From a virus: a stretch of 42,347 bases of DNA. Under the pieces are notes generated by a model. That model did not search any database and was not told the DNA's origin. It saw only the letters and a program-made list of their open reading frames with translations. Shown in pieces: positions 677-41,100 of the stretch. The DNA lies in the IMG/VR virus record IMGVR_UViG_3300008267_000295, positions 1-42,347 of that record. One strand, written 5' to 3'. The translations under genes were made by a program, and so were the position numbers. Each line of letters starts with the position of its first letter. The stretch's first letter is position 1.

Positions 677-1212
677 TATGAACTCATTCTATCTCTAATT
701 AATGGCTCCATAGCCGTAACAAATGTTGGGTAAAACTTAGATATCTTTTCCAACATTTGAATAGTTTCGTTTTCAATCATCAACATATCACTGTTGATAT
801 ATAAACCAGCCTCTTCACCCGCAATTAATACGAAGTTAATTTCCAAATCGGTGATTGAACCATCCATTCTAACTTGTTTTTCGGAAATTGTGAAACCAGG
901 GTCTAATTCCGCAATTTGTGATACTTGTTGTCTAAAAGAATCGATAATTTGTGTAATCCCATTCTTTTCTTCAGGTTTAAGTTCTATATCTTCTTTGTCA
1001 GTCGATACAAGTTTAATCTCAACATCATTAACAACTTCAATATTATCGTACTGTTCTTTATCGACATCAGTATTTACTTCATCTGGATTCGTGTTCGTAA
1101 CTTCTTCGTTTTCGTTGATTTGTGACTTATTGATATGTCTGGATTCATTTAGATTCCTAATTGTATTCAACATACCTTTTATTTCGTCATATCCTGTATT
1201 TTTATTGTTCAT
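676..1212 (-). CDS. Acidic hypothetical phage protein, 178 aa
   Basis: The first ~75 residues are Asn/Glu/Asp-rich and probably disordered. The C-terminal ~110 residues look folded and contain an amphipathic helix (IDSFRQQVSQIAELDPGF) followed by strand-like segments (LEINFVLIAGEEAGLYINS). The gene overlaps the start of the left neighbour by one base and the end of the amidase-like gene by 11 bases. No catalytic motif is visible. A TATTTATA element lies inside the upstream gene near 1252. I recall no named family; a small virion or assembly-associated protein is possible from context. Confidence 0.65.
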   Translation of the reverse strand: MNNKNTGYDEIKGMLNTIRNLNESRHINKSQINENEEVTNTNPDEVNTDVDKEQYDNIEVVNDVEIKLVSTDKEDIELKPEEKNGITQIIDSFRQQVSQIAELDPGFTISEKQVRMDGSITDLEINFVLIAGEEAGLYINSDMLMIENETIQMLEKISKFYPTFVTAMEPLIRDRMSS

Positions 1213-1807
1213 GTTTAAAAATTTGTCTAAAATTAAATGATGGGTTTATATCTGTATAAATATTTGAAAAATTAGATTTACACACAACCCCATCAAAGTT
1301 TACCGCATTTTCCAAATATCCTTGGGATGGGACGATTTTTTTAGGGATACTATATGATTCACATAAATGAGTGCACAAGTTAGATATAATTGAAATTTGA
1401 TTTTCATCATACCTATCCCAATAATGATAATTTCTCCAATTTCTTATGAATGGTTCTGACCTATATGGGTCACCTATCCAATTACTCAAAAACCCCGTAA
1501 TGGTGTTTTTATTTAGCCATCCGAGGTTTTCAATTGCAATTTTGATGAATTGTTTGTCTATTAATGGTTCATCAAATGTGTTAGAATAATAGTTTGTATC
1601 GTATAATTGATAAATCGTCCCAAGTTTAGTAACAATAAAATGTGGTATTTCATTGTATTTACCACACTTTCTGTACTTTAATTTGTTGATAAAATCGTCA
1701 GTTCTTCTACCAGTATCATAAAGTAAAATTTGACTTTTTTTTGTTTTTCTTCGAACAATATTTAAACTTTTATTATCTAAACCTTCTACGTTGTGTATTT
1801 CCAACAT
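1202..1807 (-). CDS. Amidase_2-fold protein with apparently lost zinc ligands (pseudo-endolysin)
   Basis: The 201-aa protein keeps the outline of an N-acetylmuramoyl-L-alanine amidase (Amidase_2/PGRP fold). It has the central hairpin PHFIVTKLGTIYQLYD (55-70), the helix DENQISIISNLCTHLCESY (134-152) and the closing IYTDINPSFNF (183-193) that corresponds to the family's DPGP-x-FxW ending. The zinc-binding histidines are not where expected. The first-ligand strand reads ILLYDTG (Tyr30), the second region reads YYSNTF (73-78), and the VxxH of the third-ligand region reads VVCKSNF (Lys177). The fold assignment is fairly safe. Loss of hydrolytic activity is inferred from these substitutions, so it may bind peptidoglycan or act structurally rather than as a lysin. 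Confidence 0.6.
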   Translation of the reverse strand: MLEIHNVEGLDNKSLNIVRRKTKKSQILLYDTGRRTDDFINKLKYRKCGKYNEIPHFIVTKLGTIYQLYDTNYYSNTFDEPLIDKQFIKIAIENLGWLNKNTITGFLSNWIGDPYRSEPFIRNWRNYHYWDRYDENQISIISNLCTHLCESYSIPKKIVPSQGYLENAVNFDGVVCKSNFSNIYTDINPSFNFRQIFKHEQ

Positions 1808-1942
1808 TTCTAGTTAATTTTTTTCTAATAACAGAAGAGACTCCGTTGTCTCCCTCTGTTATGTTATTTTCTTCCTCTTCCCCATTCTCCGAACCATAGT
1901 TTACTAACGACTCCGTTGGTTGTGGGTACTCTTCCTCTATTA
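1773..1942 (-). other. Shifted-frame C-terminal extension of the membrane protein
   Basis: This interval would otherwise be a gene-poor gap of about 130 bases. In the -1 frame relative to the upstream ORF it encodes about 57 codons without a stop: first an acidic stretch (EEEYPQPTESLVNYGSENG), then a basic end (RKKLTRNVGNTQRRRFR). It has no start codon of its own near its beginning, and its acidic half matches the composition of the preceding tail. It overlaps the amidase-like gene by 35 bases. I read it as the true C-terminus of the neighbouring gene, reached by ribosomal slippage on the A-run or restored by a one-base correction. Confidence 0.6.
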
Positions 1943-3067
1943 TTTTTTTTTTTCGTCATCATCATTTTCTGTGATGATTTCAGTATTATCTTCTAGTTCT
2001 ATTGGTGTTGGTTCTTCAATTAGTTCAGATGGAACAATTTCAACATCTAACTTACCAAAAAACTCATTTTCTAATTCTTCCAAACTTTCACCCGGTTGAT
2101 TTAATTCTTCAATAACAACAGGTTGTTCTTCGATTACAACTGGTTGTTCTTCAAATACAGGTGGTGGTACGTTTAATAACCCATCGGTTACAATAACCGG
2201 TTCTTCTTCGGCCACAAGTGTCTCCTCAACCACAATCGTCTCTTCTGTGGCAGGTTCTTCAACTACGGGTACTTCCTCCAGAACAGGTTGTTCTTCAACA
2301 ATTGGTTCTGGTATCTCTTCAATAACTTGTGGTTGTTCTTCAACAATTTCAGTTGGTTCTATTGATGTTTCTTCATCTTTCTGTGAATCTAAAACGTCTT
2401 TATAATGGTCAGCAGCGTTTTTTAATGCTTCATTTGGGTTTGGTGGGTTGTTTAGAATTTTCTCAAGAGTCTCCAAATCATTTTCTGATAATCTTATTCT
2501 TGAAACTTCACCCACAACATCTTTAGCATCAACTACAGGTATTTCTTCCTCAATTTTTTCTTCTACTGTTTTTTTTTCGGGTTCTTGTGATGTTGCTTTT
2601 TTATCTTCTTGTGTGAATTTCACTAACATGTGTAAGAATGAAAGTGAGATTATTGGTAACATACCACCAGCAAAAAATGCTAAGAATCTTTTATGTCCAA
2701 TATAATCATTTGGGTCAACCCCCATGAATTCAACTAATGGTGAAACTAATTCAACCCAAGATGTGAAAGATTGACTATTAATGTCGATATATGAATATGC
2801 AAAGTAAATGTTACCAATGAACTGTATCAAAGTAACAATACCAAATGGGAAATATACTTTTTTACCCATATTTGCAGATATTGCTGCCAATGCTGATAAT
2901 GCCGCAATTTCAATACCAACAGAAAGGTAAATTGACCAAGTTACCGGGTTTGATATCCCGTACCATTTTGTTACGTGTGAAATAGAAACTAACGCAACCG
3001 TAATGATTGGGATTAAAAACGCTAATATTATTATTGTTTTATAATTCTTACTGAACCAATTTTTCAT
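1940..3067 (-). CDS. Four-helix membrane protein with acidic Pro/Glu-rich tail; frame broken at A11 run
   Basis: Four hydrophobic segments lie at about residues 11-30, 44-66, 72-94 and 128-150. After residue 155 comes a long cytoplasm-type tail of Glu/Pro/Val repeats (EEQPVVIEEQPVVIEE and similar), probably disordered. The frame stops just after an A11 homopolymer (minus strand, 1943-1953), giving EKKK then stop. A -1 shift there continues in phase as KKKIIEEEYPQPTESLV, with the same acidic composition, to a stop at 1773-1775. The start overlaps the upstream gene by 4 bases (ATGA). I do not recognise a family; a phage inner-membrane protein is the safe call. Confidence 0.7.
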   Translation of the reverse strand: MKNWFSKNYKTIIILAFLIPIITVALVSISHVTKWYGISNPVTWSIYLSVGIEIAALSALAAISANMGKKVYFPFGIVTLIQFIGNIYFAYSYIDINSQSFTSWVELVSPLVEFMGVDPNDYIGHKRFLAFFAGGMLPIISLSFLHMLVKFTQEDKKATSQEPEKKTVEEKIEEEIPVVDAKDVVGEVSRIRLSENDLETLEKILNNPPNPNEALKNAADHYKDVLDSQKDEETSIEPTEIVEEQPQVIEEIPEPIVEEQPVLEEVPVVEEPATEETIVVEETLVAEEEPVIVTDGLLNVPPPVFEEQPVVIEEQPVVIEELNQPGESLEELENEFFGKLDVEIVPSELIEEPTPIELEDNTEIITENDDDEKKK

Positions 3068-3351
3068 TTAATACTTTTTTCTAACTTATTTATTTCTTCG
3101 TCAATTTGTGTTTGACGATTAACATCTAAAATTTTTCTATCTGTTGATTGAATCATTCTTTTTTCGGATTTTAATCCTTCAATTTTTAATCTCAAATCCA
3201 TTTCTTCTTTAGTGTAGGTTGAGTCTTTGATTGTTTCAATCTCTTTTCTCATTTTAGATAATTCTCTACCATCACCACAACTTTTAAAAAAACCTAAAAG
3301 TGCAATGACTAAAACAATAATTGTGAAATTTTTTTCAATAAAGTTTTTCAT
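3064..3351 (-). CDS. Small membrane-anchored coiled-coil protein, 95 aa
   Basis: An N-terminal membrane segment (about residues 9-25, FTIIVLVIALLGFF) is followed by a charged, heptad-like helix for the rest of the protein (KMRKEIETIKDS, EEINKLEKSIK). A Cys at about residue 25 sits just after the hydrophobic stretch (FFKSCGDG), but the context is not a convincing lipobox. It overlaps the following membrane-protein gene by four bases. The topology matches inner-membrane spanins and many small phage envelope proteins. No specific family is recognised. Confidence 0.6.
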   Translation of the reverse strand: MKNFIEKNFTIIVLVIALLGFFKSCGDGRELSKMRKEIETIKDSTYTKEEMDLRLKIEGLKSEKRMIQSTDRKILDVNRQTQIDEEINKLEKSIK

Positions 3352-3361
3352 ATATTTTTAA

Positions 3362-4174
3362 TTATAAATAGTTTAATAAACCGTAACTATCATTACGGAG
3401 TTTTTTTAATGCCTTATCTCTAAGTTGTCTTATTCTTTCTTTTGTGCAACCAAATTCCTCACCTAAATCCTCGAGATTCATCTCAACACCATTTAGTCCA
3501 TATGATTTTTCAATTATAACTTTTTCTCTGTCGTCAAGAATAGATAACATGGCAGATACTCTTTTTTTAATTTCATCTGATGTGTTTAATATATCTTCAG
3601 GATTATCGGCATCAACATTAATTATTGTATCAAATAATTGGTCACCATCTTCATTTATCTCATCAAAAAGATTTACACAGTATGGTAAAACAATATCACC
3701 AATACTATCATCATAGTTAATAAAAAATTGGTCATCTATTGCAACCTGTCCATTTTTTCTTCTTTTTTGATTTTCTTGGATGATGTTTGATGGTAATCTT
3801 ATTGTTCTAGAATTATCATTAAGTGATGCCATGATAGACTGTTTAATCCACCACACGGCGTAAGAAATGAATTTGTTTCCGCTATCTGGGTCGAATCTTT
3901 CCGCTGCACGAATTAAACCGATGTTACCTTCCGATATTAAATCAATTAAGTCCATACCGTTATTTTGGTAGGACTTTGCAACTGTTATGACGAATCTCAA
4001 ATTACCAAGAACCATCTCATTTAAGAGTTCGGTCTTTTCCTTCTTTGTAATTTCTTTATCTTTGAGTCTTTTAAAAATTTCATCTTGCCTTTCGTGGGTG
4101 ATGACTTTGATTTTACGGATGTCTTTGATGTAATTCTGTATCTCTTCCGTATTGATTAGTATTGATTTACTCAT
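3362..4174 (-). CDS. Phage RNA polymerase sigma-70 factor
   Basis: The 270-aa protein has a near-complete primary-type sigma-70 layout. A region 1.2-like segment spans about 12-39. Region 2 spans about 54-124, with NLRFVITVAKSYQ, DLIDLISEGNIGLIRAAERF and the region 2.3/2.4 core FISYAVWWIKQSIMASL. Region 4 spans about 208-262, with a helix-turn-helix LEDLGEEFGCTKERIRQLRD. The middle (135-200) is divergent and acidic, in place of a clear region 3. It should redirect host core polymerase to phage promoters, probably late ones, since it lies beside envelope and virion genes. This is much closer to RpoD than T4 gp55 is. A candidate target motif (TATTTATA) is listed separately. Confidence 0.9.
   Translation of the reverse strand: MSKSILINTEEIQNYIKDIRKIKVITHERQDEIFKRLKDKEITKKEKTELLNEMVLGNLRFVITVAKSYQNNGMDLIDLISEGNIGLIRAAERFDPDSGNKFISYAVWWIKQSIMASLNDNSRTIRLPSNIIQENQKRRKNGQVAIDDQFFINYDDSIGDIVLPYCVNLFDEINEDGDQLFDTIINVDADNPEDILNTSDEIKKRVSAMLSILDDREKVIIEKSYGLNGVEMNLEDLGEEFGCTKERIRQLRDKALKKLRNDSYGLLNYL
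3363..3370 (-). promoter_or_regulatory. TATTTATA element upstream of the 95-aa membrane protein gene
   Basis: The minus strand reads CTATTTATAATTAAAAATAT before the ATG at 3351. The octamer lies 11 bases from the start and overlaps the last codons of the sigma-factor gene. Confidence 0.3.
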
Positions 4175-4690: not shown

Positions 4691-5092
4691 CTATATCAAT
4701 AAAGCTAAAATAATTAAAATTGTTCCCCCACCAATTATTTTCTTATTGTTGGATTTGACCTTTTTTATTACCTTATCTTTTTCACCGATAACACCATCTT
4801 TTAAGACAACGGTCTGATTGAGATTATCGATGTTTGATGTTAAAATTTTATTAGTTTCAGTCTTGGTTGTGATTAGACTATCTTGAGATGAAACAATTTT
4901 TGACAAAACTGTAACAGAATCTCTAGCATCCATTAATTCCAATTTACAAACCTCAAAGTCACTTTTCATCTTTAGTGCGTTCCTTAATTGAGACACAGGA
5001 ACACATCTAATTGAATCATTTGAACGACTCTGAGAAAAGGTCGGTAATGTCATCATTAGACATACTATTGTAACGAGCAGATTCTTTTTCAT
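4691..5092 (-). CDS. Secreted coiled-coil protein with C-terminal membrane anchor (spanin-like)
   Basis: The 133-aa protein starts with a classical signal peptide (MKKNLLVTIVCLMMTLPTFS, then Q). The TFSQ ending is typical of Bacteroidota exported proteins, and no lipobox cysteine is present. The body is a predicted coiled coil with repeated SQDSLITTKTETNK-type polar heptads, and the last ~17 residues (GGTILIILALLI region) form a membrane segment. Its first 77 bases lie inside the 3' end of the upstream gene in another frame, as in nested Rz/Rz1 pairs. A spanin or similar envelope-linking lysis role is inferred from topology only; sequence similarity to known spanins is not visible. Confidence 0.55.
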   Translation of the reverse strand: MKKNLLVTIVCLMMTLPTFSQSRSNDSIRCVPVSQLRNALKMKSDFEVCKLELMDARDSVTVLSKIVSSQDSLITTKTETNKILTSNIDNLNQTVVLKDGVIGEKDKVIKKVKSNNKKIIGGGTILIILALLI

Positions 5093-5360
5093 ATTTTCTT
5101 TTTAATTCTTTATTTTTATTTGAGACTTGGGACAACTCATTTTTTAAGTTCTTAATATTATCCATTTGTTTGTTCTCAACAATGGATAATGAGTCAAGTT
5201 TTTTATTATTTGCAGTAATGACATTACTTAACGAATCAATTTTTTGATTGTATATGTCAATATTAACGTTACTTTCGGTGTTATTAAAAAATAAAAAGAA
5301 TATTACCACACCAATTAGTACAACATTTAATATTAAAGAAATTTGATTTTTGTTAATCAT
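5016..5360 (-). CDS. N-terminally anchored coiled-coil protein (i-spanin-like), 114 aa
   Basis: One membrane segment occupies about residues 8-25 (ILNVVLIGVVIFFLFF), followed by a long polar coiled coil (IDSLSNVITANNKKLDSLS, KNELSQVSNKNKELKRKYEK). This is the topology of an inner-membrane spanin: cytoplasmic N-terminus, one helix, periplasmic coiled coil. Its 3' end overlaps the secreted partner gene by 77 bases in a different frame. No holin or active endolysin is evident nearby, although the degenerate amidase-like gene lies about 3.5 kb downstream in the same direction. The lysis assignment is therefore tentative. Confidence 0.55.
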   Translation of the reverse strand: MINKNQISLILNVVLIGVVIFFLFFNNTESNVNIDIYNQKIDSLSNVITANNKKLDSLSIVENKQMDNIKNLKNELSQVSNKNKELKRKYEKESARYNSMSNDDITDLFSESFK

Positions 5361-13744: not shown

Positions 13745-15892
13745 TTAAAAATCTATTTTTAATGCGAAGACTTGTGTTCCACTTCTTTTGATTGGATTCG
13801 CGGTTTTACCGATAACAAGAACTTCTTTGTTTTCATTCAATAAAGCAACCTCAGTGACTCTTTTATCTTGTCCTGTAGTATATGTTGGATTTTGACTAAC
13901 ATTGAATTGACTTGCTGGTAGATTTATTAAGAAATTCATTTTCTCAATGTCGGTTGCTCTAACCAATTTAACACTACCGGGGAATGGTTGTTCATCACCA
14001 AATTGAGGGTCGGTAGACGGTTCGTTAGGTATTTCACCAATGAACGTTTCCAAATCAAAAATAGACGTATCATTTTCAAACATGTCAAATGTTATTTGGA
14101 ATGAATAATCTACTAAATTTGATGGATTGATAGTATTACCAACAGTGTGATTTGGTATGTAAGAAGTCATATCCAAAAGTTTCCATTGATTAGGTGATGG
14201 TAAATCACCAAAATCGGTTACTTGTATTAATAATTGGAATTGATTTGCAATGAATCCATTCGCAAAATTACAAGTTGTACCTGTGGTCATTTTTGAAAAA
14301 TAACCATCATTAAATTTAACAAATAATTGAGAAGGAATTTGATAATATGTACTACCTATTGTGGTTTCAATTTTTGTATAATAATTACACGGTAATCCAT
14401 TTAATTGGGTATCACCGGTATAATTTAACATATAAGTTACCCACGTAGTTTGTTGTGTTGACCCCGAATAGAATGATTGAGCCGCTGGTAAATCGCTTGG
14501 GATAAGATTTAATTTAGGTGCAGGTAAAGTGTATTTTCTATTCGATTTATAGTCCATAACAGCAACCAATTCTTGGTCATCAATTACCACTACTTTATTA
14601 TTTACGAAAATTTTACCAACTTTTGCGTTCGTTTCATCAAGTAGATATCTAAATTTTATTTTTTGATATGCGTTTTTACTTGAGCTTACATAATAATCTG
14701 TGGTGTCCATTGTCAGTAAAACACCTATTGTTGTACCAGTATTTCTATGATATTGTACAAACGGTATGTAAACTTCAAAATATTCTAAATCGGTAATCGT
14801 GTTACCAACCGAATCTTCTAATAACGCACTTGCTTCAACATTATTAGTACTGATGTAATCGTCGTATTTAAAGAATCTTTCTGGGTCATTTTTTAAATCC
14901 CCTAATTCAGAATAGTGAATAACCGCAATACATCTTTGTTCTTCAGGTTTTACCTCAACTTGTTCATTATATGAGTTATAATATGAGGTTGGGTAACTTA
15001 TCGTACCACCTGTGGTATTAGTAAATGTTTGACCACTTGATGTGGTATAACCTAAATATTGTTTTGTTGATACGTGTTTATTTGATGTAAAACCTGTTAA
15101 ATTTTCATCCAAACCATTAACATCAAAACCTATTGGTTTCATATCCCAAACCACATTCATTGTCCACGGATTGAGTTGTTGTGATGGGTCAATTTCTGAT
15201 GGTCTACAATTCGGATTAAATTCTACTTCAACCGGATATTCATTTTCACAAGAATTACATATAACTTGTGCTGGACCACTACAACCTGAAAAATTAGGTG
15301 TAAACCTATCTAAATAAAGAGTGTTTCCTGTAACACCAGTTATTCTATAAATTAAACTATTTGTTTCTCCTGTAATAACAGGGTGATTAGGGTCTGTACC
15401 GCAAAAACCACCGAACACTATCGTAATAAATTCACAGTCATTAAAACTTGCACCTGTCGGTACTATTACTGTGTTTGTTCCCGTTAATCCCGATAAAGAT
15501 ATTTGTTGAGTTTCACACTCAATACTTGTACCCGTACAATCATCACTATCATATTCCACATATTGACTAACAAACCCAGCAGGACCCATTATATTTCTTA
15601 ATGTATCTGTAGTTGATGATTCAACAGGTATTCCATAAACAGTTGAATTAGATGAACTATCTAATTTGTATGGATATTTTATACCTCCCTCTTTATCTAA
15701 AGGTGCAAATACCGATTGAAAAGGTATTGAATTTAAACCAGTTAAATTATCAAATGGTGATGTATAATCAAATTCGGAATCTCCAATTTGAAAATAGGAA
15801 ACGTTAAAACTTCCTTTTGCAATAGAATTTCTACCCTTTTGGGTGATTCTTACAGATAAAAATTCCGAATTATTATTACTTAAAAAACTCAT
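13745..15892 (-). CDS. Large virion structural protein (tail/baseplate or fibre-linked), 715 aa
   Basis: The N-terminus (LSVRITQKGRNSIAKGSF, then FQIGDSEFDY) and C-terminus (VTEVALLNENKEVLVIGK, then FALKIDF) match a family of tail-associated proteins seen in T4-like phages of Bacteroidota; the C-terminal pattern is like tail-collar fibre domains. The middle is strand-rich with many Thr/Asn/Gly and a few Cys (CSGPAQVICNSC). No signal peptide or membrane helix is present. It precedes the fibre cluster and has none of the Thr-Pro-Ser linkers, so it may be the part to which the fibres attach. A TATTTATA element lies 8 bases before its ATG. Confidence 0.65.
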   Translation of the reverse strand: MSFLSNNNSEFLSVRITQKGRNSIAKGSFNVSYFQIGDSEFDYTSPFDNLTGLNSIPFQSVFAPLDKEGGIKYPYKLDSSSNSTVYGIPVESSTTDTLRNIMGPAGFVSQYVEYDSDDCTGTSIECETQQISLSGLTGTNTVIVPTGASFNDCEFITIVFGGFCGTDPNHPVITGETNSLIYRITGVTGNTLYLDRFTPNFSGCSGPAQVICNSCENEYPVEVEFNPNCRPSEIDPSQQLNPWTMNVVWDMKPIGFDVNGLDENLTGFTSNKHVSTKQYLGYTTSSGQTFTNTTGGTISYPTSYYNSYNEQVEVKPEEQRCIAVIHYSELGDLKNDPERFFKYDDYISTNNVEASALLEDSVGNTITDLEYFEVYIPFVQYHRNTGTTIGVLLTMDTTDYYVSSSKNAYQKIKFRYLLDETNAKVGKIFVNNKVVVIDDQELVAVMDYKSNRKYTLPAPKLNLIPSDLPAAQSFYSGSTQQTTWVTYMLNYTGDTQLNGLPCNYYTKIETTIGSTYYQIPSQLFVKFNDGYFSKMTTGTTCNFANGFIANQFQLLIQVTDFGDLPSPNQWKLLDMTSYIPNHTVGNTINPSNLVDYSFQITFDMFENDTSIFDLETFIGEIPNEPSTDPQFGDEQPFPGSVKLVRATDIEKMNFLINLPASQFNVSQNPTYTTGQDKRVTEVALLNENKEVLVIGKTANPIKRSGTQVFALKIDF

Positions 15893-27248: not shown

Positions 27249-29141
27249 TTAACACATGGTACCACAATTACATGTATATGTTCCACTACAACATGGTCCA
27301 GTTGAGGTAGCGGTTGAAAAGTTTGCTGGTACTAAATTTCCACCTTGGTATATTAATATACCAATCACCCTAGATATACAAAAATTTGTAATTCCCGGTG
27401 AAGCTAATGTTTCAATTCCAAAAAGACCATCACAACATTGGTAGTAAAAATAAACGAGTCCACCATCTGCCGCATTTATATCATCAATTGAAATATCCAC
27501 CTGCGTACATTGACATTCACCACAAGGACCCATTTTTGTTATACCACCAAAGAATGGTCCACCCACAACAACCGGGTTGGTACATGCACATAGAGTTAAT
27601 GTATTCGTATTTAACCAATAATTTACATCATTTAATGATTGAGCAAAACCATTACAGTCAGTGTAGTTAACAGTATGTGTTGGGTCTAAACCATCTATCA
27701 CATATTCACTACATGAACATGGTGATGGTGATGGAGTTGGAGTTGGTGATGGTGTTCTTGTTGGTGTTACCGATGCTCCCCCACCCGCACTTGTTGGTGA
27801 TGGTGTTCTTGTTGGTGTAACGCTCGGAGTTCTTGAAGGTGTAACACTTGGAGTTCTTGAAGGTGTAACACTTGGAGTTCTTGAAGGTGTCGGTGTAACT
27901 GACCTAGTTGGTGTTGGTGAAGGAGATGGACATGGATAGAAAGATTGACACTCAGGACAATCACCAAATGGACCAAATGTCACAACTCCAGCATTTCCTG
28001 ATGCTGGGCCAACATATGAAGTTACTTCATAACAACATCCACCTACTGACACAAATTCACCAACAAGTGAACTTGGAACAAAACCACTATCACACCCAAA
28101 TTGAATTGTTTGTATACCACTTGTCCCACAACAAAGGTCGCACGGTTCCATTGTATATGAATATGCCGGACATGGGTTACTTAACTTACATGTTGCACAG
28201 TTATCGGGACTAAATGAGTTAGAATCGATATATCCATCCGCACCCGTGAAATTAGGTGAACCGTATATTGCAGTATAACCTTCAATAAAATAACAACAAC
28301 CACCTATAACAACAGTCCACCCACCTCTTGATGCTGCTTGTAACCATACCAATGATGTGGTTACACTTAAAAATTGTGAATTTGAATATAAACCACCTCC
28401 ATCACAACATGGTAAAAGGTAAACATAACCAATTGCCATCGATGGAGAAGGTGTTGGTGTTCTTGTTGGTGTTACACTTGGTGTTAATGACGGTGTTTGT
28501 GTGACACTCGGAGTTCTTGATGGTGTGACACTTGGTGTTCTTGATGCTGATGGAGTAACACTTGCGGTTCTACTTGGAGTAACACTTGCGGTTCTACTTG
28601 GTGTTACTGATGGTGTTCTTGTTGGTGTTGGGGTCATTGATGATGTTGGTGTTGGTGTTACTGATGGACAGAAAACCAATGATTCCGAAATACAATCTTG
28701 ACATGTTCCATTATATAGGTTAGTAATAGTACCACCCGGACCTCCGAAAGATACTAATGTACCACACTGAAGAACATCAGGTAGATAAAATACCTGTCCT
28801 ATTATTGAACCGATAGGTACTCTACCAAAATAACTGGTAGTTACACCCGGACAACATGATTGAAATATCGCGTTTTGATATTGTGGACTTGGTGATGGTG
28901 TTATAGATTGTGTAGGAGTTACTGACCTTGATGGTGTAACTGATGCTGTTAAACTTGGTGTAACACTTGGTGTAACACTTGGTGTAACAGTTCTTGATGG
29001 TGTTATAGATGGTGTAACAGAACTAGTAGGAGTTACTGACCTTGATGGTGTAACTGATGCTGTTAAACTTGGTGTAACACTTGGTGTAACACTTGGTGTA
29101 ACAGTTCTTGATGGTGTTATAGATGGTGTTTGGTGTAACAC
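27249..29141 (-). CDS. C-terminal globular domains of the giant fibre (frame-shifted from the repeat ORF)
   Basis: Here 630 aa begin at a chance start ([11 protein letters not shown]) created by a shift at about 29,129; the natural upstream sequence is the giant repeat frame. In order come ~80 residues of repeats, an [20 protein letters not shown] domain, a linker rich in [11 protein letters not shown], a double CC module beginning [16 protein letters not shown] (Met codon at 28437-28439, internal), a linker, a [20 protein letters not shown] module, and a final [19 protein letters not shown] module ending CNCGTMC. The modules match those at the C-terminus of the second fibre, so the giant protein carries the same kind of head. 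Two linked genes split here by real evolution are possible but less likely. Confidence 0.75.
28912..29129. repeat. Perfect tandem duplication (114-bp period) ending at a frameshift
   Basis: The 104 bases 28912-29015 recur exactly at 29026-29129 with a 10-base spacer, and a partial third copy begins at 29130. At the 29129/29130 junction the consensus GGTGTAACACTTGG has lost AACAC and reads GGTGTTTGG, which moves the repeat frame by one. Confidence 0.85.
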
Positions 29142-32100
29142 TTGGTGTAACAGTTCTTGATGGTGTTATAGATGGTGTAACAGATGATGTTGAGGTAATT
29201 GATGGTGTTATAGATGGTGTGATACTTGGAGTTCTACTTGGTGTAACTGATGGTGTAACTGATGATGTTGGTGTTATACTTGGAGTTACTGATGGTGTTC
29301 TTGACGGTGTAACTGATGGTGTAACTGATGATGTGGGAGTAATTGAAGGTGTAACCGAAGGGGTGACTGATGATGTTGGTGTAATTGATGGTGTTATACT
29401 TGGTGTAACACTTGCGGTTCTACTTGGTGTAACAGATGGGGTTACGGAACTGGTAGGTGTTATACTTGGAGTTACTGATGGTGTAACACTTGATGTTGGT
29501 GTTATAGAAGGTGTTATTGATGGTGTAACACTCGCAGTTCTTGAAGGAGTTATTGATGGGGTTACGGAACTGGTAGGTGTTATACTTGGAGTTACTGAAG
29601 GAGTTCTACTTGGGGTAATTGAAGGTGTTACCGATGATGTTGGAGTTACTGATGGTGTTATAGATGGAGTAACACTTGATGTTGGTGTAATAGAAGGTGT
29701 TACAGATGGGGTCACCGACGCTGTTCTTGACGGTGTTATACTTGGTGTTACACTAGATGTTGGTGTTATACTTGGAGTTACTGATGGTGTTCTTGACGGT
29801 GTAACTGACGGTGTAACTGATGATGATGGTGTAACCGATGGTGTAACTGACGGTGTAACTGATGATGTTGGTGTAATAGAAGGTGTTATTGATGGTGTAA
29901 CACTCGCAGTTCTTGAAGGAGTTATACTTGGTGTCACTGATGATGTAGGTGTTATAGAAGGAGTAACACTTGCAGTTCTACTTGGTGTTATAGAAGGAGT
30001 TACGCTTGATGTTGGTGTAACTGATGGTGTTATAGATGGAGTAACAGAACTTGTCGGTGTAATTGATGGTGTTATACTTGGTGTAACACTCGGTGTAATT
30101 GATGGTGTGATAGAAGGTGTTACTGATGATGTAGGCGTTATACTTGGAGTAACACTTGCAGTCCTACTTGGGGTAATTGAAGGAGTTACAGAACTGGTAG
30201 GTGTAATAGACGGTGTAACACTTGGGGTAACAGAACTAGTTGGTGTCACCGATGGTGTTCTTGATGGTGTTACCGATGGTGTTACAGAACTAGTTGGTGT
30301 AATAGAAGGTGTTATTGATGCTGTTCTACTTGGAGTTACCGATGCGGTAAGTGATGGTGTAACACTTGATGTTGGTGTAATAGAAGGTGTTACTGATGCG
30401 GTTCTACTTGGTGTAATAGATGGTGTTACAGAACTAGTTGGTGTAATAGAAGGTGTAACTGATGGTGTTACAGAACTAGTTGGTGTAATTGACGGTGTAA
30501 CCGATGGTGTTACAGATGCAGTTCTACTTGGTGTAACTGAAGGTGTAACTGACGCTGTTGGTGTAACTGAAGGTGTAACTGAAGGTGTAACTGACGCTGT
30601 TCTTGAAGGAGTTACACTTGGTGTTATAGAACTAGATGGTGTTACTGAACTTGTTGGTGTAACCGATGGTGTTATTGATGGTGTAACCGAAGGAGTAACT
30701 GAACTTGTTGGTGTAACCGATGGTGTTATTGATGGTGTAACCGATGGAGTAACAGAACTTGTTGGTGTAACCGATGGTGTTCTACTTGGTGTAACCGAAG
30801 GAGTAACAGAACTTGTTGGAGTTACCGAAGGGGTTACCGAAGGGGTTATACTTGCTGTTCTTGAAGGAGTTATACTTGGAGTTACAGATGATGTTGGTGT
30901 AATAGAAGGTGTAACACTTGCAGTTCTACTCGGAGTAATACTTGGAGTTATAGAACTAGTTGGTGTTACTGACGGAGTTCTACTTGGTGTAATTGACGGT
31001 GTAACACTAGATGTTGGCGTAATTGATGGGGTTACTGATGGAGTAACACTTGGTGTAACTGAACTTGTTGGTGTGATAGATGGTGTAACTGATGGTGTAA
31101 TTGAAGGAGTTACGCTTGATGTTGATGTAACTGACGGTGTTATTGATGGTGTGACACTCGCAGTTCTTGAAGGAGTTATACTTGGAGTAACTGAACTTGT
31201 AGGAGTTACCGAAGGAGTAATTGACGGTGTTACCGAAGGAGTAATTGACGGTGTAATTGATGATGTTGGGGTAATTGACGGTGTAACCGAAGGTGTTACA
31301 GAACTTGTTGGAGTTACCGATGGTGTGACACTTGGTGTTACACTTGCAGTTCTACTTGGTGTCACTGATGGGGTTACTGATGATGTTGGTGTAATTGACG
31401 GAGTTACCGATGCTGTAACACTTGGTGTAACTGATGGTGTAACGGAACTAGTTGGTGTTACTGAAGGTGTAATTGATGGTGTTACCGATGGTGTAACAGA
31501 ACTTGTTGGGGTAATTGATGGTGTAATTGATGGCGTTCTTGTTGGTGTTACGGATGGTGTAATTGATGGTGTAACAGAACTAGTTGGAGTTACAGATGGT
31601 GTAACACTTGGGGTTACACTTGGTGTAACAGATGGTGTTACAGAACTAGTTGGGGTTACAGATGCCGTTACCGATGGAGTTACAGAACTAGTTGGTGTTA
31701 TTGAAGGTGTGACACTTGGAGTTCTACTCGGTGTTATAGAAGGTGTTACCGATGGTGTAACGGAACTAGTTGGTGTAATAGATGGTGTAACTGATGCGGT
31801 GACAGATGGAGTTATACTTGGCGTAACAGAGCTGGTGGGTGTGATTGATGGTGTAACACTTGGTGTGACACTCGATGTTGGTGTAATTGACGGTGTAACC
31901 GATGGTGTAACTGATGCTGTTCTACTTGGTGTAACTGAAGGTGTAACTGATGCGGTTCTACTTGGTGTAATGGATGGTGTAACTGATGCTGTGGGAGTTA
32001 TTGACGGTGTAACCGATGGGGTAACAGAACTAGTTGGTGTTATACTTGGAGTTACAGATGCGGTCACCGATGGTGTTACAGAACTTGTTGGTGTGATGGA

Positions 32101-35100
32101 TGGTGTAACCGAAGGGGTAACCGATGGTGTGACACTTGCAGTTCTACTTGGTGTTATTGATGGGGTTACGGAACTTGTTGGTGTAATGGAAGGTGTGACA
32201 CTTGGTGTTACTGATGGAGTAACTGAACTTGTTGGTGTAACAGATGGTGTAACAGACGGAGTTATACTTGGAGTAACACTTGATGTTGGTGTCACCGATG
32301 GTGTTCTACTTGGTGTTACAGATGCGGTAACTGAAGGTGTCACCGATGGTGTTACACTCGATGTTGGTGTAACTGAAGGTGTAACTGAAGGTGTAACTGA
32401 TGCTGTTCTACTTGGTGTAACACTTGGTGTAACAGAACTAGTGGGTGTAATTGAAGGGGTAACACTTGCGGTTCTACTTGGAGTTACTGATGGTGTAACG
32501 GAACTTGTTGGTGTTACCGATGGGGTTATAGAAGGTGTGATACTTGGAGTTACAGAACTGGTTGGTGTTATAGATGATGTTGGAGTTACTGATGGTGTTA
32601 CTGATGGTGTTCTACTTGGTGTAACTGATGGTGTTACTGATGATGTAGGAGTAACCGATGCAGTTACAGATGGTGTTATAGAAGGTGTTACTGACGGAGT
32701 TACAGATGCTGTCACCGATGGGGTTACTGAACTAGTTGGTGTAACTGAAGGTGTTACCGATGGTGTAACTGAAGGTGTAACTGAACTAGTTGGTGTGATA
32801 GAAGGAGTTATACTTGGTGTGATACTCGGAGTTACTGATGGAGTTACCGAAGGAGTTACACTTGCAGTTCTACTTGGAGTAATTGATGGTGTCACACTCG
32901 ATGTTGGTGTGATAGAAGGTGTTACAGATGGGGTTACGGAAGGTGTAACCGAACTTGTTGGAGTTACAGATGGTGTTATAGAAGGTGTTACTGATGGAGT
33001 AACTGATGCTGTTCTCGATGGTGTAACGGAACTAGTTGGTGTTACCGATGGGGTAACACTCGCAGTTCTACTCGGTGTAATTGACGGTGTAACACTAGAT
33101 GTTGGTGTTATTGAAGGGGTTACTGATGGAGTAACTGAACTTGTTGGAGTTATACTCGGTGTGACACTTGGTGTTATCGATGGAGTAACCGAACTTGTTG
33201 GTGTTACCGATGCAGTGATTGAAGGTGTTATAGAAGGTGTTATACTCGATGTCGGTGTAATTGATGGGGTAACAGAACTAGTAACCGATGGTGTAACAGA
33301 CGATGTTGGTGTTATCGATGGAGTTACTGAAGGTGTAATTGATGGAGTCACAGAACTAGTTGGTGTAACTGATGGTGTTCTTGACGCTGTTACTGAAGGT
33401 GTAACACTTGATGTTGGTGTAACACTTGGGGTAACAGATGCCGTTCTCGATGGTGTGACAGATGCTGTGACAGATGGAGTTACTGAACTAGTTGGTGTAA
33501 CCGATGGAGTCACAGATGGTGTAACCGATGGAGTCACAGATGGTGTAACTGATGAAGTAGGTGTAATAGAAGGTGTAACTGATGGTGTTACAGAACTAGT
33601 TGGTGTTATACTTGGTGTAACACTTGGTGTTATAGATGGAGTTACGGAACTGGTTGGTGTAATTGAAGGAGTAACACTTGCAGTTCTACTTGGTGTAACA
33701 GATGCTGTCACCGATGGGGTAACTGAACTGGTTGGTGTGACACTTGGCGTAACACTCGCAGTTCTACTCGGTGTAATTGACGGTGTAACACTAGATGTTG
33801 GTGTTACTGATGGGGTAACAGAACTAGTTGGTGTTATAGAAGGTGTTATTGATGGGGTTACTGATGGAGTTACCGATGACGTAGGTGTTACTGATGGTGT
33901 AATAGAAGGTGTTACTGAAGGTGTTACACTTGATGTTGGTGTAACACTTGGTGTTATCGATGGTGTTACTGAAGGGGTAACAGATGCCGTTCTCGATGGT
34001 GTTACAGAACTAGTTGGGGTTACGGATGGTGTAATTGACGGTGTAATTGATGGTGTTCTTGACGGTGTTACAGATGATGTTGGAGTTATGGAAGGTGTAA
34101 CTGAAGGTGTTACACTTGATGTTGGTGTGATACTCGGGGTTATTGATGGAGTTACCGATGGTGTAACTGACGATGTCACCGATGGTGTAACTGATGCGGT
34201 TCTACTTGGTGTAACTGATGGTGTGACAGAACTAGTTGGGGTGATAGATGGTGTTACTGAAGGAGTTACACTTGCAGTTCTACTTGGAGTAATTGATGGT
34301 GTGACACTTGCTGTTACCGATGGGGTAACTGAAGGTGTAACCGATGATGTGGGGGTAACCGATGGTGTTATAGAAGGTGTAACTGACGATGTTGGTGTTA
34401 CCGATGGGGTAACTGACGGTGTAATTGATGGGGTTATCGATGGTGTAACTGAACTAGTCGGTGTTATTGATGGTGTAACTGATGCAGTGACAGATGGTGT
34501 GATAGAAGGTGTTATGCTTGGAGTTACAGATGATGTTGGGGTAATACTTGGTGTAACTGAAGGTGTTCTACTTGGTGTCACTGATGGTGTCACTGATGAT
34601 GTAGGAGTAACCGATGCAGTTACAGATGGTGTTACACTTGATGTGATACTTGGGGTAACTGAACTTGTCGGTGTAATTGATGGTGTTCTACTTGGAGTAA
34701 CAGATGGTGTTACTGAACTAGTTGGTGTTACTGAAGGTGTAACAGATGCAGTGACAGATGGTGTTATACTTGGAGTAACAGATGGTGTTACTGAACTAGT
34801 TGGTGTTACGGATGCGGTTACTGAAGGTGTTCTACTTGGTGTAACTGATGGTGTAACTGATGTCACTGAACTGGTTGGTGTAACGCTTGGTGTAATAGAA
34901 GGAGTTACAGAACTAGTTGGTGTAATTGATGGAGTTATTGATGATGTAACTGAAGGCGTAACTGAACTAGTTGGTGTTATACTTGGAGTTACAGATGCGG
35001 TTACCGATGGTGTAACTGATGGTGTTACTGAAGGTGTTCTACTTGGTGTTACTGATGGTGTCACACTCGATGTTGGTGTGATAGAAGGTGTAACTGATGC

Positions 35101-38100
35101 GGTAACAGATGGTGTAACTGATGCCGTTACTGATGGGGTAATACTTGGTGTAATTGATGGTGTAACTGATGGTGTTATTGAGCTTGTTGGTGTAACTGAC
35201 GGTGTTACCGATGGTGTTACAGAACTAGTTGGTGTAATTGAAGGAGTTATACTTGGTGTCACCGATGGTGTAACAGAACTAGTAGGTGTAACTGATGCGG
35301 TAACCGATGGGGTTACTGATGCCGTTACCGATGGTGTAACACTTGGGGTTACAGATGGTGTTACTGATGGTGTAACACTTGATGTTGGAGTAACACTCGG
35401 TGTAATTGATGGTGTTATACTTGGTGTAACTGAACTAGTTGGTGTTATACTTGGGGTAACACTTGCAGTTCTACTTGGGGTAACAGAACTAGTTGGTGTT
35501 ACTGACGGTGTTACCGATGGTGTAACGCTTGCGGTTCTACTTGGGGTTATTGACGGTGTTACCGATGATGTTGGTGTAACTGATGCGGTGACAGATGGTG
35601 TTATCGATGGTGTAACTGATGGTGTAACTGAACTGGTTGGGGTAACAGACGGTGTTACAGATGGTGTAACTGAACTAGTTGGTGTAACCGATGGTGTAAC
35701 TGATGGAGTTACCGATGGGGTAACACTTGATGTTGGTGTTACAGATGGTGTAACTGATGGTGTAACTGATGGTGTAACACTAGATGTTGGTGTTATAGAA
35801 GGTGTTATTGATGCGGTGACAGATGGTGTTATACTTGGGGTAACACTCGGAGTAACAGAACTTGTTGGTGTTATACTTGGTGTGACACTTGCGGTTCTTG
35901 AAGGTGTTATTGATGGTGTTACTGAGCTTGTTGGTGTAATAGAAGGTGTAACAGAACTAGTTGGTGTAATAGAAGGTGTTACCGATGCAGTTCTACTTGG
36001 CGTAACTGAACTAGTTGGTGTAACCGATGGTGTAACTGATGGAGTTACCGACGGTGTAACACTAGATGTTGGTGTTATAGAAGGAGTTACCGATGGTGTG
36101 ATAGATGGGGTTACTGAACTAGTAACCGATGGTGTAACACTCGATGTTGGAGTTACTGATGGTGTAATAGAAGGGGTCACACTTGGTGTTACTGATGGTG
36201 TAACTGATGATGTAGGAGTAACTGATGCGGTTACAGATGGTGTAACTGAACTAGTTGGTGTAATAGAAGGTGTTATAGAAGGTGTTACTGACGGAGTTAC
36301 AGAACTTGTTGGTGTAACACTTGCAGTTCTACTTGGTGTGATAGTTGGCGTAACTGATGCCGTAATTGACGGTGTTATACTTGAGGTAACACTCGGAGTA
36401 ACTGAACTAGTTGGTGTTACTGATGGTGTTATACTTGGTGTGATAGATGGTGTTATACTTGGTGTTACAGATGATGTTGGTGTAATAGAAGGTGTAACAG
36501 ATGCTGTTACGGATGGTGTAACAGAACTAGTTGGTGTTATACTTGGGGTAACAGATGCGGTAACTGAAGGTGTAACTGAAGGTGTAATAGATGGTGTAAC
36601 GGAACTAGTTGGTGTTATACTTGGAGTTACTGATGCAGTTCTACTTGGAGTAATTGATGGTGTGACACTCGATGTTGGTGTAATTGAAGGAGTGATAGAT
36701 GGAGTAACAGAACTGGTTGGTGTTATCGATGGTGTTATCGATGGTGTTATCGATGGTGTCACAGAACTAGTTGGTGTTATGCTCGGAGTTCTACTTGGTG
36801 TTATTGAGGGTGTAACTGAACTAGTTGGTGTAACCGATGGTGTAACTGATGGAGTTACCGATGGTGTTACAGATGCTGTCACCGATGGTGTAACTGAACT
36901 TGTCGGTGTTACCGATGGGGTAACACTTGCGGTTCTACTTGGGGTAATAGATGGTGTAACAGATGATGTTGGTGTTATAGAAGGTGTTAATGATGGTGTA
37001 ACTGAACTAGTTGGTGTTATCGATGGAGTTATACTTGGTGTTATCGATGGGGTGACAGAACTGGTGGATGTTACCGAAGGTGTAACACTTGGAGTTACAG
37101 ATGCGGTCACCGATGGTGTTACTGAAGGTGTTCTACTTGGTGTAACTGATGGTGTAACTGATGATGTTGGTGTTATTGAAGGTGTTATAGATGGAGTTAC
37201 GGAAGGTGTGACCGAAGGGGTTACAGATGCGGTAACTGATGGGGTTATTGATGGGGTTACAGATGCGGTAACTGAAGGTGTTACTGAACTTGTCGGTGTT
37301 ACTGATGGTGTGACTGATGAGGTGACACTTGGTGTAATTGATGCAGTAACTGATGGTGTTAATGATGGTGTAACTGAGCTAGTTGGTGTTATAGATGGTG
37401 TAACACTCGCAGTTACCGATGGAGTAACTGACGATGTGGGAGTTACTGATGGCGTAACACTTGGTGTTACTGAAGGTGTAGTAGAACTAGTTGGTGTTAC
37501 AGATGGTGTAACACTTGCAGTTCTACTTGGTGTAACCGATGGGGTAACACTCGGAGTTACTGATGATGTTATACTTGGTGTTACAGATGATGTTGGAGTA
37601 ACAGAAGGAGTTATACTTGGAGTAACTGACGCTGTGACCGATGGAGTTACACTAGATGTTGGTGTTATAGAAGGAGTTACTGATGGTGTAACTGATGGTG
37701 TGATAGATGGAGTTATAGATGGTGTAACTGAACTAGTTGGTGTTATACTTGGTGTTATACTTGGTGTAACCGAAGGAGTAATACTTGGTGTTACAGATGA
37801 TGTTGGTGTTACAGATGGAGTTCTACTTGGAGTAACAGATGGTGTAACTGAACTTGTTGGTGTGATAGATGGTGTAACTGATGGTGTAACTGATGCTGTC
37901 ACCGATGGAGTAACAGAACTTGTTGGTGTTATTGAAGGTGTAATACTTGGAGTAACAGAAGGAGTAACTGACGCTGTGACCGATGGAGTTACACTAGATG
38001 TTGGTGTTACAGATGGTGTAACTGATGGTGTAACTGATGCCGTAACCGACGGGGTAACTGAACTTGTTGGTGTAATTGAAGGGGTTATACTTGGTGTCAC

Positions 38101-41100
38101 TGATGGTGTAACACTAGATGTTGGTGTAACACTTGGAGTTACTGATGGTGTTACTGACGGTGTAATAGAACTGGTAGGTGTGATTGATGGTGTAACACTC
38201 GGAGTTACTGATGGTGTAACGCTTGAAGTTGGGGTGATGGATGGTGTTATCGATGGGGTTACAGATGCAGTCACCGATGGTGTCACCGATGGTGTTACTG
38301 ATGATGTTACTGATGGTGTTACAGAACTTGTTACTGATGGTGTTATACTAGATGTTGGTGTAATTGAAGGTGTTATACTTGGAGTAACTGACGGAGTTAC
38401 AGATGCTGTCACCGACGGGGTAACAGAACTAGTTGGTGTAACTGAAGGTGTTACCGATGGTGTTACAGATGCTGTCACCGATGGGGTTACTGAACTAGTT
38501 GGTGTAACTGAAGGGGTAACACTTGCGGTTCTACTTGGAGTTACCGATGGTGTTACACTCGGGGTTATCGATGCTGTTACTGATGGAGTAATACTCGGTG
38601 TTACAGATGATGTTGGGGTTATTGAAGGTGTTATACTTGGTGTGATTGATGGTGTAACTGATGGTGTGACAGAACTAGTTGGTGTTATTGAAGGTGTAAC
38701 TGATGCTGTAACTGATGGAGTCACTGAGCTTGTTGGTGTTATACTTGGTGTGACACTTGCGGTTCTTGAAGGTGTTATTGATGGTGTTATAGAACTTGTT
38801 GGTGTAATAGAAGGTGTGACACTCGGAGTTACCGATGCTGTAACACTTGGTGTAACTGATGGTGTAACGGAACTAGTTGGTGTTACTGAAGGGGTTATCG
38901 ATGGAGTAACGGATGCCGTTATAGATGGTGTAACAGATGATGTTGGAGTTACCGATGGTGTTACTGATGGGGTAACTGAACTAGTAACCGAAGGGGTTAT
39001 AGATGATGTTGGGGTTACTGATGGTGTAACACTTGGTGTGACACTCGGAGTAATACTTGGAGTTACAGAACTAGTTGGTGTTACTGACGGAGTTCTACTT
39101 GGTGTGATGGATGGAGTAACACTTGATGTTGGTGTTATCGATGGTGTAACACTCGGAGTAATACTTGGAGTTACAGAACTAGTTGGTGTTACTGATGGTG
39201 TGACAGATGATGTCACCGATGGAGTAACCGAACTTGTTGGGGTAACTGATGGCGTAATTGACGGTGTTACTGATGGTGTTATACTTGGAGTTACAGAACT
39301 AGTTGGTGTAATAGAAGGTGTAACACTTGGTGTTATACTCGATGTTGGTGTTACTGACGGTGTTACAGAAGGAGTTATACTTGGGGTAACTGATGGTGTT
39401 ACAGAACTAGTTGGTGTAACACTTGGTGTGACAGATGCTGTTACCGATGGCGTTATACTTGGAGTTATTGATGGTGTGACACTTGATGTTGGTGTAATTG
39501 ATGGTGTAACGGAACTTGTTACTGATGGTGTAACGGAACTAGTGGGTGTAACACTTGGTGTTATACTTGGTGTAACTGATGGTGTGACACTTGAAGTGGG
39601 CGTTATACTTGGTGTTATACTTGGTGTAACTGATGGGGTAACGGAACTAGTAGGGGTAACACTTGGAGTCACTGATGCGGTAACACTTGGAGTCACAGAG
39701 CTAGTTGGTGTGATAGATGGTGTAACTGATGCGGTGACAGATGGTGTTATAGAAGGTGTTACTGAACTTGTCGGTGTTACTGATGGTGTAACTGATGCGG
39801 TGACAGATGGAGTTATACTCGGAGATACCGATGGGGTAATACTTGAAGTAGGTGTAACCGATGGAGTAACACTTGCGGTTCTACTTGGGGTGATAGAGGG
39901 TGTTACTGAACTTGTTGGTGTAATTGATGGGGTAACTGAACTAGTAACCGATGGTGTTACAGATGATGTTGGGGTTATTGAAGGTGTTATACTTGGTGTT
40001 ATACTTGGTGTTACTGAACTTGTTGGTGTTACAGATGGTGTAACTGAACTAGTAACCGAAGGGGTTATAGATGCGGTAACCGACGGTGTAATAGAAGGGG
40101 TTACTGACGGTGTTATTGAGGGTGTTACAGAACTAGTGGATGTTACTGAAGGTGTTATACTTGGTGTAACAGAACTAGTAACTGACGGTGTTATACTTGA
40201 TGTTGGTGTAACTGATGGTGTTATACTTGGAGTTACAGACGCAGTAACTGATGGTGTGATAGATGGAGTTATAGATGATGTTGGAGTTACCGATGGTGTT
40301 ACACTTGGTGTAACACTTGCTGTTACCGATGGTGTTACTGAACTTGTTGGAGTAACTGATGGAGTAACAGAAGGGGTTATCGATGCTGTTACCGATGGTG
40401 TTATACTAGATGTTGGTGTTACAGATGATGTGACACTTGGTGTAATTGATGGTGTAACAGAACTTGTTGGTGTAACTGATGGTGTTATACTTGTAGTTAC
40501 CGATGGGGTTACTGAAGGGGTTGGTGTGCTTGTTGGTGTTGGGGATGGTAATCTAGTATAATCAATATCACAAGACGGTGCAGGTGTCGGTGTTATACTT
40601 GGTGTTATACTTGGTGTTATACTTGGTGTAACAGAACTTGTTGGAGTTACTGATGGAGTTACACTCGATGTCGGTGTTAGTGATGGTGTAACAGAACTAG
40701 TAATCGACGGTGTTAGTGACGGAGTTACAGAACTGGTTGGTGTTAGTGACGGAGTTACAGAAGGTGTTACAGAAGGTGTTACAGAACTGGTAACTGATGG
40801 AGTAATACTGGATGTTGGTGTAACACTCGGAGTTACCGATGGAGTTACCGATGGAGTTATTGAACTAGTAACCGAAGGGGTCACAGAACTGGTAGGGGTT
40901 ACTGAAGATGTTATACTTGGTGTAACAGATGCTGTCACCGATGGTGTAACAGATGATGTTGGGGTTACCGATGGAGTTACCGATGCCGTAACACTTGGTG
41001 TAATAGACGCTGTTACTGATGGAGTAACTGAACTACTTGGTGTAACACTTGGTGTAATAGACGCTGTTACTGATGGGGTAATCGATGGGGTGACAGAACT

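Follow-up and report, generated by a model that had tools for sequence, protein, structure and literature searches.

A conserved A run with an abutting RNA hairpin points to programmed transcriptional slippage in a membrane-protein gene beside the putative endolysin gene of a large virus lineage

The 42,347-nucleotide viral sequence analyzed here in full (IMG/VR record IMGVR_UViG_3300008267_000295, positions 1 to 42,347; hereafter, the window) carries a gene for a helical membrane protein that very probably yields two protein forms through programmed RNA polymerase slippage at a run of 11 A residues (A11). The run, the relation by which one additional A opens the tail frame, the tail frame itself, the hairpin, and the gene order are all conserved.

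The zero-frame open reading frame (ORF) of this gene (1940..3067, minus strand) encodes a short form of 375 amino acids (aa), comprising a predicted helical membrane domain, a TacA-like segment, and an acidic Glu/Pro region, and its 3' end, read from 3067 to 1940, is GAC-GAA-AAA-AAA-AAA-TAA. As the first-pass annotation of this DNA had pointed out, the A11 run runs straight into a stop (GAA AAA AAA AAA TAA, minus strand). The run itself, the putative slippage site, occupies 1943..1953 (minus strand), with A9 to A11 at this place in 42/42 slip-type sequences (defined below), and the zero-frame TAA directly 3' of it occupies 1940..1942 (minus strand). It is the only A run of at least 10 on either strand of the window. 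The 57 codons that the annotation saw regained by a −1 shift correspond to 56 residues and a stop (1773..1943, minus strand), reached via one extra A or a −1 shift; the resulting long form would have 431 aa. The window tail terminates in RKKLTRNVGNTQRRRFR, and a basic RNV..R end is found in 37 of the 42 slip-type tails. The end of the tail overlaps the start of the downstream amidase gene by 35 nt (1773..1807, minus strand), an overlap that follows from the positions given in the first-pass annotation without being spelled out there, and the zero-frame stop lies 132 nt ahead of that start.

Relatives were collected in four scans of viral contigs, which returned 227 usable entries including the window, many of them repeat fetches. 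These were reduced to 90 distinct gene sequences, again including the window, and two loci that lacked the membrane-protein part were excluded. The scripted classification required an amidase in the locus, which two of the 90 loci did not have. In 42 of the 90 sequences (slip type), the tail can be reached by adding one A to a run of A9 to A11; in none can it be reached by removing one. In four sequences (in-frame type; L029, L035, L095, and L126), the zero frame includes the tail and one or two A9 or A10 runs are present; in most of these four, stops occur soon 3' of the run in both shifted frames, so that slippage would truncate the tail. A short sister group (42/90) encodes proteins of 224 to 305 aa without the long tail, and 41 of its members have no A9 run. 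The remaining member, L147, has an A9 near the gene end (nt 679 of the membrane-protein gene), where deletion of a single A would join the membrane protein and the whole amidase in one reading frame; this is a single case. The first-pass annotation had looked to homologues for a decision and had named run-less relatives with an uninterrupted frame as evidence against a functional run. The run and the frame relation of the tail are kept in 42 of the 90 distinct sequences. Run-less, uninterrupted relatives do occur, only in the sister group that lacks the long tail, and the four uninterrupted relatives with a long tail all still contain A9 or A10 runs.

Among slip-type genes (n = 42), the zero-frame stop is located 102 to 417 nt ahead of the amidase start. 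The product reached by one extra A ends 32 to 38 nt inside the amidase gene in 37 cases, 1 to 4 nt before it in four, and, in L024, 21 nt short of it; amidase starts were set by tblastn, and single offsets (e.g., L018 and L019) may err by at least one codon. The run-less short genes (n = 41) themselves overlap the amidase start, in 30 of 41 by 23 nt. In a phylogeny built from residues 1 to 158 (85 distinct rows), for which the bootstrap had not fully converged, the long genes formed one group of 42 rows with support of 100/100, except for L145, a long branch among the short genes. A second tree containing about half of the short rows placed L145 in the long group (98/87). The in-frame state corresponds to four changes on the tree, two of them forced by starred branches; the in-frame L126, for example, has the slip-type L114 as its sister. 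Hence at least two switches of the frame arrangement took place, and the runs persisted through them. A distant homologue in the 462-kb phage LR756500.1 has no A9 on either strand of a 5.4-kb piece, and the ORF that follows it does not, by eye, resemble the amidase.

Substitution patterns indicate that the tail frame is coding and under protein-level constraint. The median dN/dS of the tail frame was 0.34 (107 pairs with usable dS), compared to 1.09 and 1.26 for identical aligned codons taken in the two other frames; protein-level selection on an extension in a new frame is one of the marks of programmed slippage. Differences in the tail numbered 2429, 2174, and 3898 by codon position in 138 alignable pairs of 45 to 97% protein identity, which are not independent of one another and were aligned with the tail protein as a guide. 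The third-position excess is absent from the closest window-type pairs (e.g., 2, 8, and 2 in L001/L017). A [LI]Y[WFL]E motif was present in 26 of the 42 tails. The basic end overlaps the amidase start, and its conservation may therefore stem from the amidase.

The A run is under selection. In 45 loci (the 46 long genes minus the window), 45 A runs of at least 10 were counted in the membrane-protein genes, versus 0 in 200,451 bases of other coding sequence. The membrane-protein genes with the tail region (63,748 bases) contained 37 A10 and 8 A11 runs, while the other coding sequence of the same loci contained 40 A8 and four A9 runs and none longer. The slip set shows runs of 9, 10, and 11 in two codon registers, L095 adds a third register, and the run edges vary by substitution (AAT TAG versus AAA TAA) with the +1 relation constant. 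The lysine codon AAG is never used inside the run, whereas elsewhere in the loci it accounts for 1,372 of 5,471 lysine codons, and Glu-Lys-Lys triplets elsewhere take the pure form GAAAAAAAA in just 12 of 49 cases. The usual threshold for slippage has been given as a run of nine (PMC1088944). All 42 slip-type sequences have a run of the length expected for programmed transcriptional slippage (nine or more A's or T's, approximately, at the frame junction), and the conservation expected for it, that of the run together with its frame relation, is likewise seen among the relatives. As a separate observation, each of two close relatives carries an A9 in one other ORF, of similar length in both (L001, 7107-8433; L060, 5383-6646).

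A predicted stem-loop lies directly 5' of the run in most slip-type representatives, as in hairpin-stimulated slippage. In the window, the hairpin (1956..1977, minus strand; −6.2 kcal/mol) ends 2 nt ahead of the run, with z scores of −3.0 (34-nt piece) and −3.7 (34-nt piece plus run). Dinucleotide shuffles indicated that the 60 nt preceding the run are more structured than expected (mean z, −1.29), and a second such comparison gave −1.32 there versus −0.64 to +0.06 elsewhere. The 34 nt before the run were then compared with synonymous codon resampling in 30 representatives of the 42 slip-type sequences that were less than 80% identical over these 34 nt. Abutting hairpins, i.e., those within 1 nt of the run and of −4 kcal/mol or better, were predicted in 18 of the 30, compared to 2.46 expected (mean z, −1.94) and to 2.13 under a position-based expectation for the same genes. 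Six control places gave mean z scores of −0.48 to +0.09, and the signal was gone when the 11-codon segment was shifted one or two codons off (−1.35, −0.44, and +0.20). A hairpin lies within 3 nt of the run in 25 of the 30 representatives, and a good abutting hairpin is absent from five (L019, L020, L022, L092, and L114). The arms differ between lineages, with the 3' arm touching the run (CTTTATCTG/CAGATGAAG, CATCATC/GATGATG, CATCATT/AATGATG, and CAATTAACTC/GAGTTAGTTG), and the pair types, which come from each sequence's own predicted fold, do not amount to independent evidence of covariation. Among the four in-frame genomes, six of seven runs are without a good abutting hairpin, the exception being the second run of L035 (−4.7 kcal/mol). 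Published work describes a hairpin immediately 5' of a slippery run as a stimulator of RNA polymerase slippage (PMC5009743, PMC6211511).

Programmed −1 ribosomal frameshifting, in which the ribosome would slip back one base on A_AAA_AAA inside the run, is the rival that survives best, and we consider it improbable. This X_XXY_YYZ heptamer is present in every run, the tail occupies the −1 frame in every case, such uniform direction being a criterion for programmed ribosomal frameshifting in PMC3711429, and a weak, diffuse downstream structure exists. However, the ribosomal heptamer requires seven A's, whereas 9 to 11 pure A's are kept here in varied registers and free of AAG. A Shine-Dalgarno (SD)-like motif at stimulatory spacing was not consistently placed, and none was found before 24 of 24 window genes. 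Nor was there a localized 3' stem. The hairpin sits 5' of the run, and for −1 frameshifting a hairpin close upstream was reported to have an attenuating effect (PMC3639245). Downstream of the run, mean z scores were −0.50 and −0.32 with dinucleotide shuffles and −0.31 to −1.0 with synonymous shuffles, with up to 9 of 30 at a P value of 0.05 or less; a localized downstream stimulator was rejected because the structure excess is spread across the whole tail. The 5' hairpin, the pure runs in varied registers, the lack of an SD-like motif, and the lack of localized 3' structure thus favor transcript slippage over ribosomal −1 frameshifting.

Two further explanations are highly implausible. Under phase variation, the length of the DNA run would differ between virions and the tail would be switched on and off; A10 to A11 homopolymers are generally known to undergo replication slippage readily (see also PMC1088944), and rare run-length variants could be hidden in consensus assemblies. 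However, all 42 slip-type sequences need one more A and none needs one fewer, near-identical pairs share their run length, distinct sequences never differ solely in the run, and A11 and A10 differ via substitution rather than insertion. Alternatively, the tail could be a separate small gene translated by re-initiation and with no frameshift, in keeping with the tight packing of the genes in this cluster, where overlaps of 1 to 4 nt are common. Yet 31 of the 42 tails are without any ATG, 40 are without one in the first third, and in 18 ATG, GTG, and TTG are all absent from the first third; moreover, the four in-frame relatives encode membrane protein and tail in one uninterrupted frame. Finally, long homopolymers are error-prone, but sequencing or assembly error is excluded by the recurrence of this break in 42 distinct sequences, with its frame relation conserved and its tail constrained (and with the L001 sequence identical in 13 contigs of one scan). 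The A11 break is therefore a real feature, and among the readings that the first-pass annotation had left side by side (frameshifting, transcript slippage, or error), programmed slippage is the best supported and error has to be abandoned.

The membrane domain (aa 1 to 150; 2618..3067, minus strand) was modeled by AlphaFold2 with a mean pLDDT of 79 and a pTM of 0.55 and is conserved in alignments. Predicted helices span residues 2-36, 41-64, 68-93, and 122-160, with a shorter one at 99-113. Structure searches with this domain gave no informative match in PDB (best rows, E of 1.2 or worse) or VIA (rows with Z under 7), and a viral structure library returned two uncharacterized phage proteins (49% and 44% identity). 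Residues 180 to 223 (2399..2530, minus strand) resemble the C-terminal half of TacA (DUF1778) antitoxins (Pfam TacA1, E of 4.2e-8, over the cut-off; best E of 2.8e-4 against the DUF1778 antitoxin chains of PDB with phmmer), with a match in 18 of 41 aligned members. The TacA1 match covers just profile positions 36 to 79 of 80. A full TacA (DUF1778) antitoxin was rejected, as only the C-terminal half is matched and the rest is the membrane domain. This resemblance may reflect a membrane-tethered antitoxin mimic, or else chance or convergence. An NPPxPNE-like motif was found in 27 of the 42 slip-type genes and in 0 of the 41 run-less short genes. The membrane-protein gene of the window also contains a second run, an A9 (2569-2577, minus strand), 3' of the membrane domain, and an A9 is present at a comparable place after this domain in L015, L046, and L091. 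It has no abutting hairpin in the window, and the same is true of this run in L015 and L046; slippage here would truncate the membrane protein ahead of the acidic region.

Downstream, the overlapping gene encodes a 201-aa N-acetylmuramoyl-L-alanine amidase, the endolysin candidate (1202..1807, minus strand; Pfam Amidase_2, E of 4.8e-6, above the cut-off). Upstream, a gene for a small transmembrane (TM)/coiled-coil protein (3064..3351, minus strand; TM assigned by eye) overlaps the membrane-protein gene by 4 nt and has a weak Rz-like spanin match (phrog_739, E of 0.0044); it is preceded by an RNA polymerase sigma factor gene (3362..4174, minus strand; phrog_351, E of 9.9e-51). In tblastn searches of the 42 slip-type members, the sigma factor was found upstream in 41 and the small TM gene in 30, a 178-aa gene was found downstream in 42, and a 79-aa gene was found in 41. 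Elsewhere in the window, the minus-strand ORFs 5092..4691 and 5360..5016 overlap by 77 nt (5016-5092) in different frames, and two giant antisense ORFs (29123-40561, plus strand, 3812 aa; 29023-41454, minus strand, 4143 aa) share some 11 kb, which is unusual for chance and perhaps derives from repeats. The membrane-protein gene adjoins the endolysin gene, as phage holin genes do, and from this position alone we would guess that its product is a holin candidate; no holin family was matched in PHROGs or Pfam.

We infer from the conserved features that the polymerase is the actor and that both proteins are made. RNA polymerase, probably that of the host, would copy the A11 run while an RNA hairpin just behind it destabilizes the hybrid, and a fraction of the transcripts would gain one A (or lose two). 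Unslipped transcripts would yield the 375-aa short form, and slipped transcripts would yield the 431-aa form with the tail and its basic end. Slipped transcripts would also lead ribosomes to and beyond the endolysin start, whereas ordinary ones would have them stop 132 nt ahead of it. The slip frequency would thereby fix the ratio of short to long membrane protein and could tune endolysin output. Such coupling to the endolysin, with a role in lysis, is suggested by analogy and seems possible to us, at somewhat less than even chances. Rather more tentatively, the hairpin-stimulated stutter might act as a lysis rheostat, setting both the ratio of tailless to tailed holin-like protein and the proportion of ribosomes arriving at the endolysin start. 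In the same tentative reading, this arrangement would be conserved across a large-phage clade, and up to four branches would have taken up the inverse frame arrangement with the slippery run kept.

No gene for the RNA polymerase β' subunit was found in 10 of 10 records of the lineage, some of which are fragments; the control search gave hits in 14 of 14 genomes. Together with the evidence from the hairpin, the SD-like motif, and the 3' structure, this absence favors slippage by the host polymerase. The virus resembles the moraphages, which are large, mostly freshwater phages with a sigma factor, a prohead protease, and a primase and without RNA polymerase genes (PMC12619734); the likeness is one of published features. 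From this resemblance, this large bacterial virus is probably a freshwater one. Moraphage hosts are predicted to be mostly Bacteroidota, and the word "frameshift" has 0 occurrences in the main text of that paper (PMC12619734). Among the matches listed for the protease are Prevotella Lak phages and huge phages, which is in keeping with a Bacteroidota host, although not proof of one. A scan of bacterial genome contigs returned no relatives, and the window protein at 13745-15892 had no match in phage records.

If the proposed slippage occurs, a DNA phage would here provide a strongly conserved example of programmed transcriptional slippage, marked by a hairpin next to the run and located in an operon that also includes an endolysin gene; the mechanism is known, and its setting, a phage lysis-like operon, is new. 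Among open-licence PMC papers, no phage lysis-gene case of programmed slippage was found. The lineage also offers about 30 natural variants with which the effect of a nascent hairpin on RNA polymerase slippage could be studied, and gene callers will give the short protein in these genomes and miss the tail.

Several described systems share features with the proposed mechanism. The four in-frame relatives resemble dnaX of Thermus thermophilus, in which an in-frame A9 is accompanied by near stops in both other frames (PMC1088944); that gene differs in encoding a DNA polymerase component, with the long form in frame. An RNA stem-loop directly ahead of the slippery run has been described for IS1447, ahead of an A9 (PMC6211511), and for a Roseiflexus insertion sequence, ahead of a T5C5 run (PMC5009743), although these are transposase genes with another run and slippage direction. 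A parallel to the window is tssM1 of Citrobacter rodentium, where an A11 ends a membrane-protein ORF and slippage produces the long form, while tssM3 of Yersinia pseudotuberculosis parallels the in-frame relatives in that its long form is in frame and slippage truncates it (PMC4256274). Both length forms of tssM1 were reported to be needed (PMC4256274). In contrast to the phage gene, these are cellular secretion genes in which slippage was demonstrated by experiment, and the account of them in PMC4256274, in the part drawn on here, makes no mention of an abutting hairpin. In Shigella spa13 and spa32, the end of the C-terminal extension gained by slippage runs into the start of the next gene, whose expression the extension affects (PMC5009743); the proteins are different, and for the downstream endolysin we infer a comparable effect. 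By analogy with the tssM1/tssM3 and spa13/spa32 precedents, slippage at the A run may set both the ratio of long to short membrane protein and the translation of the endolysin.
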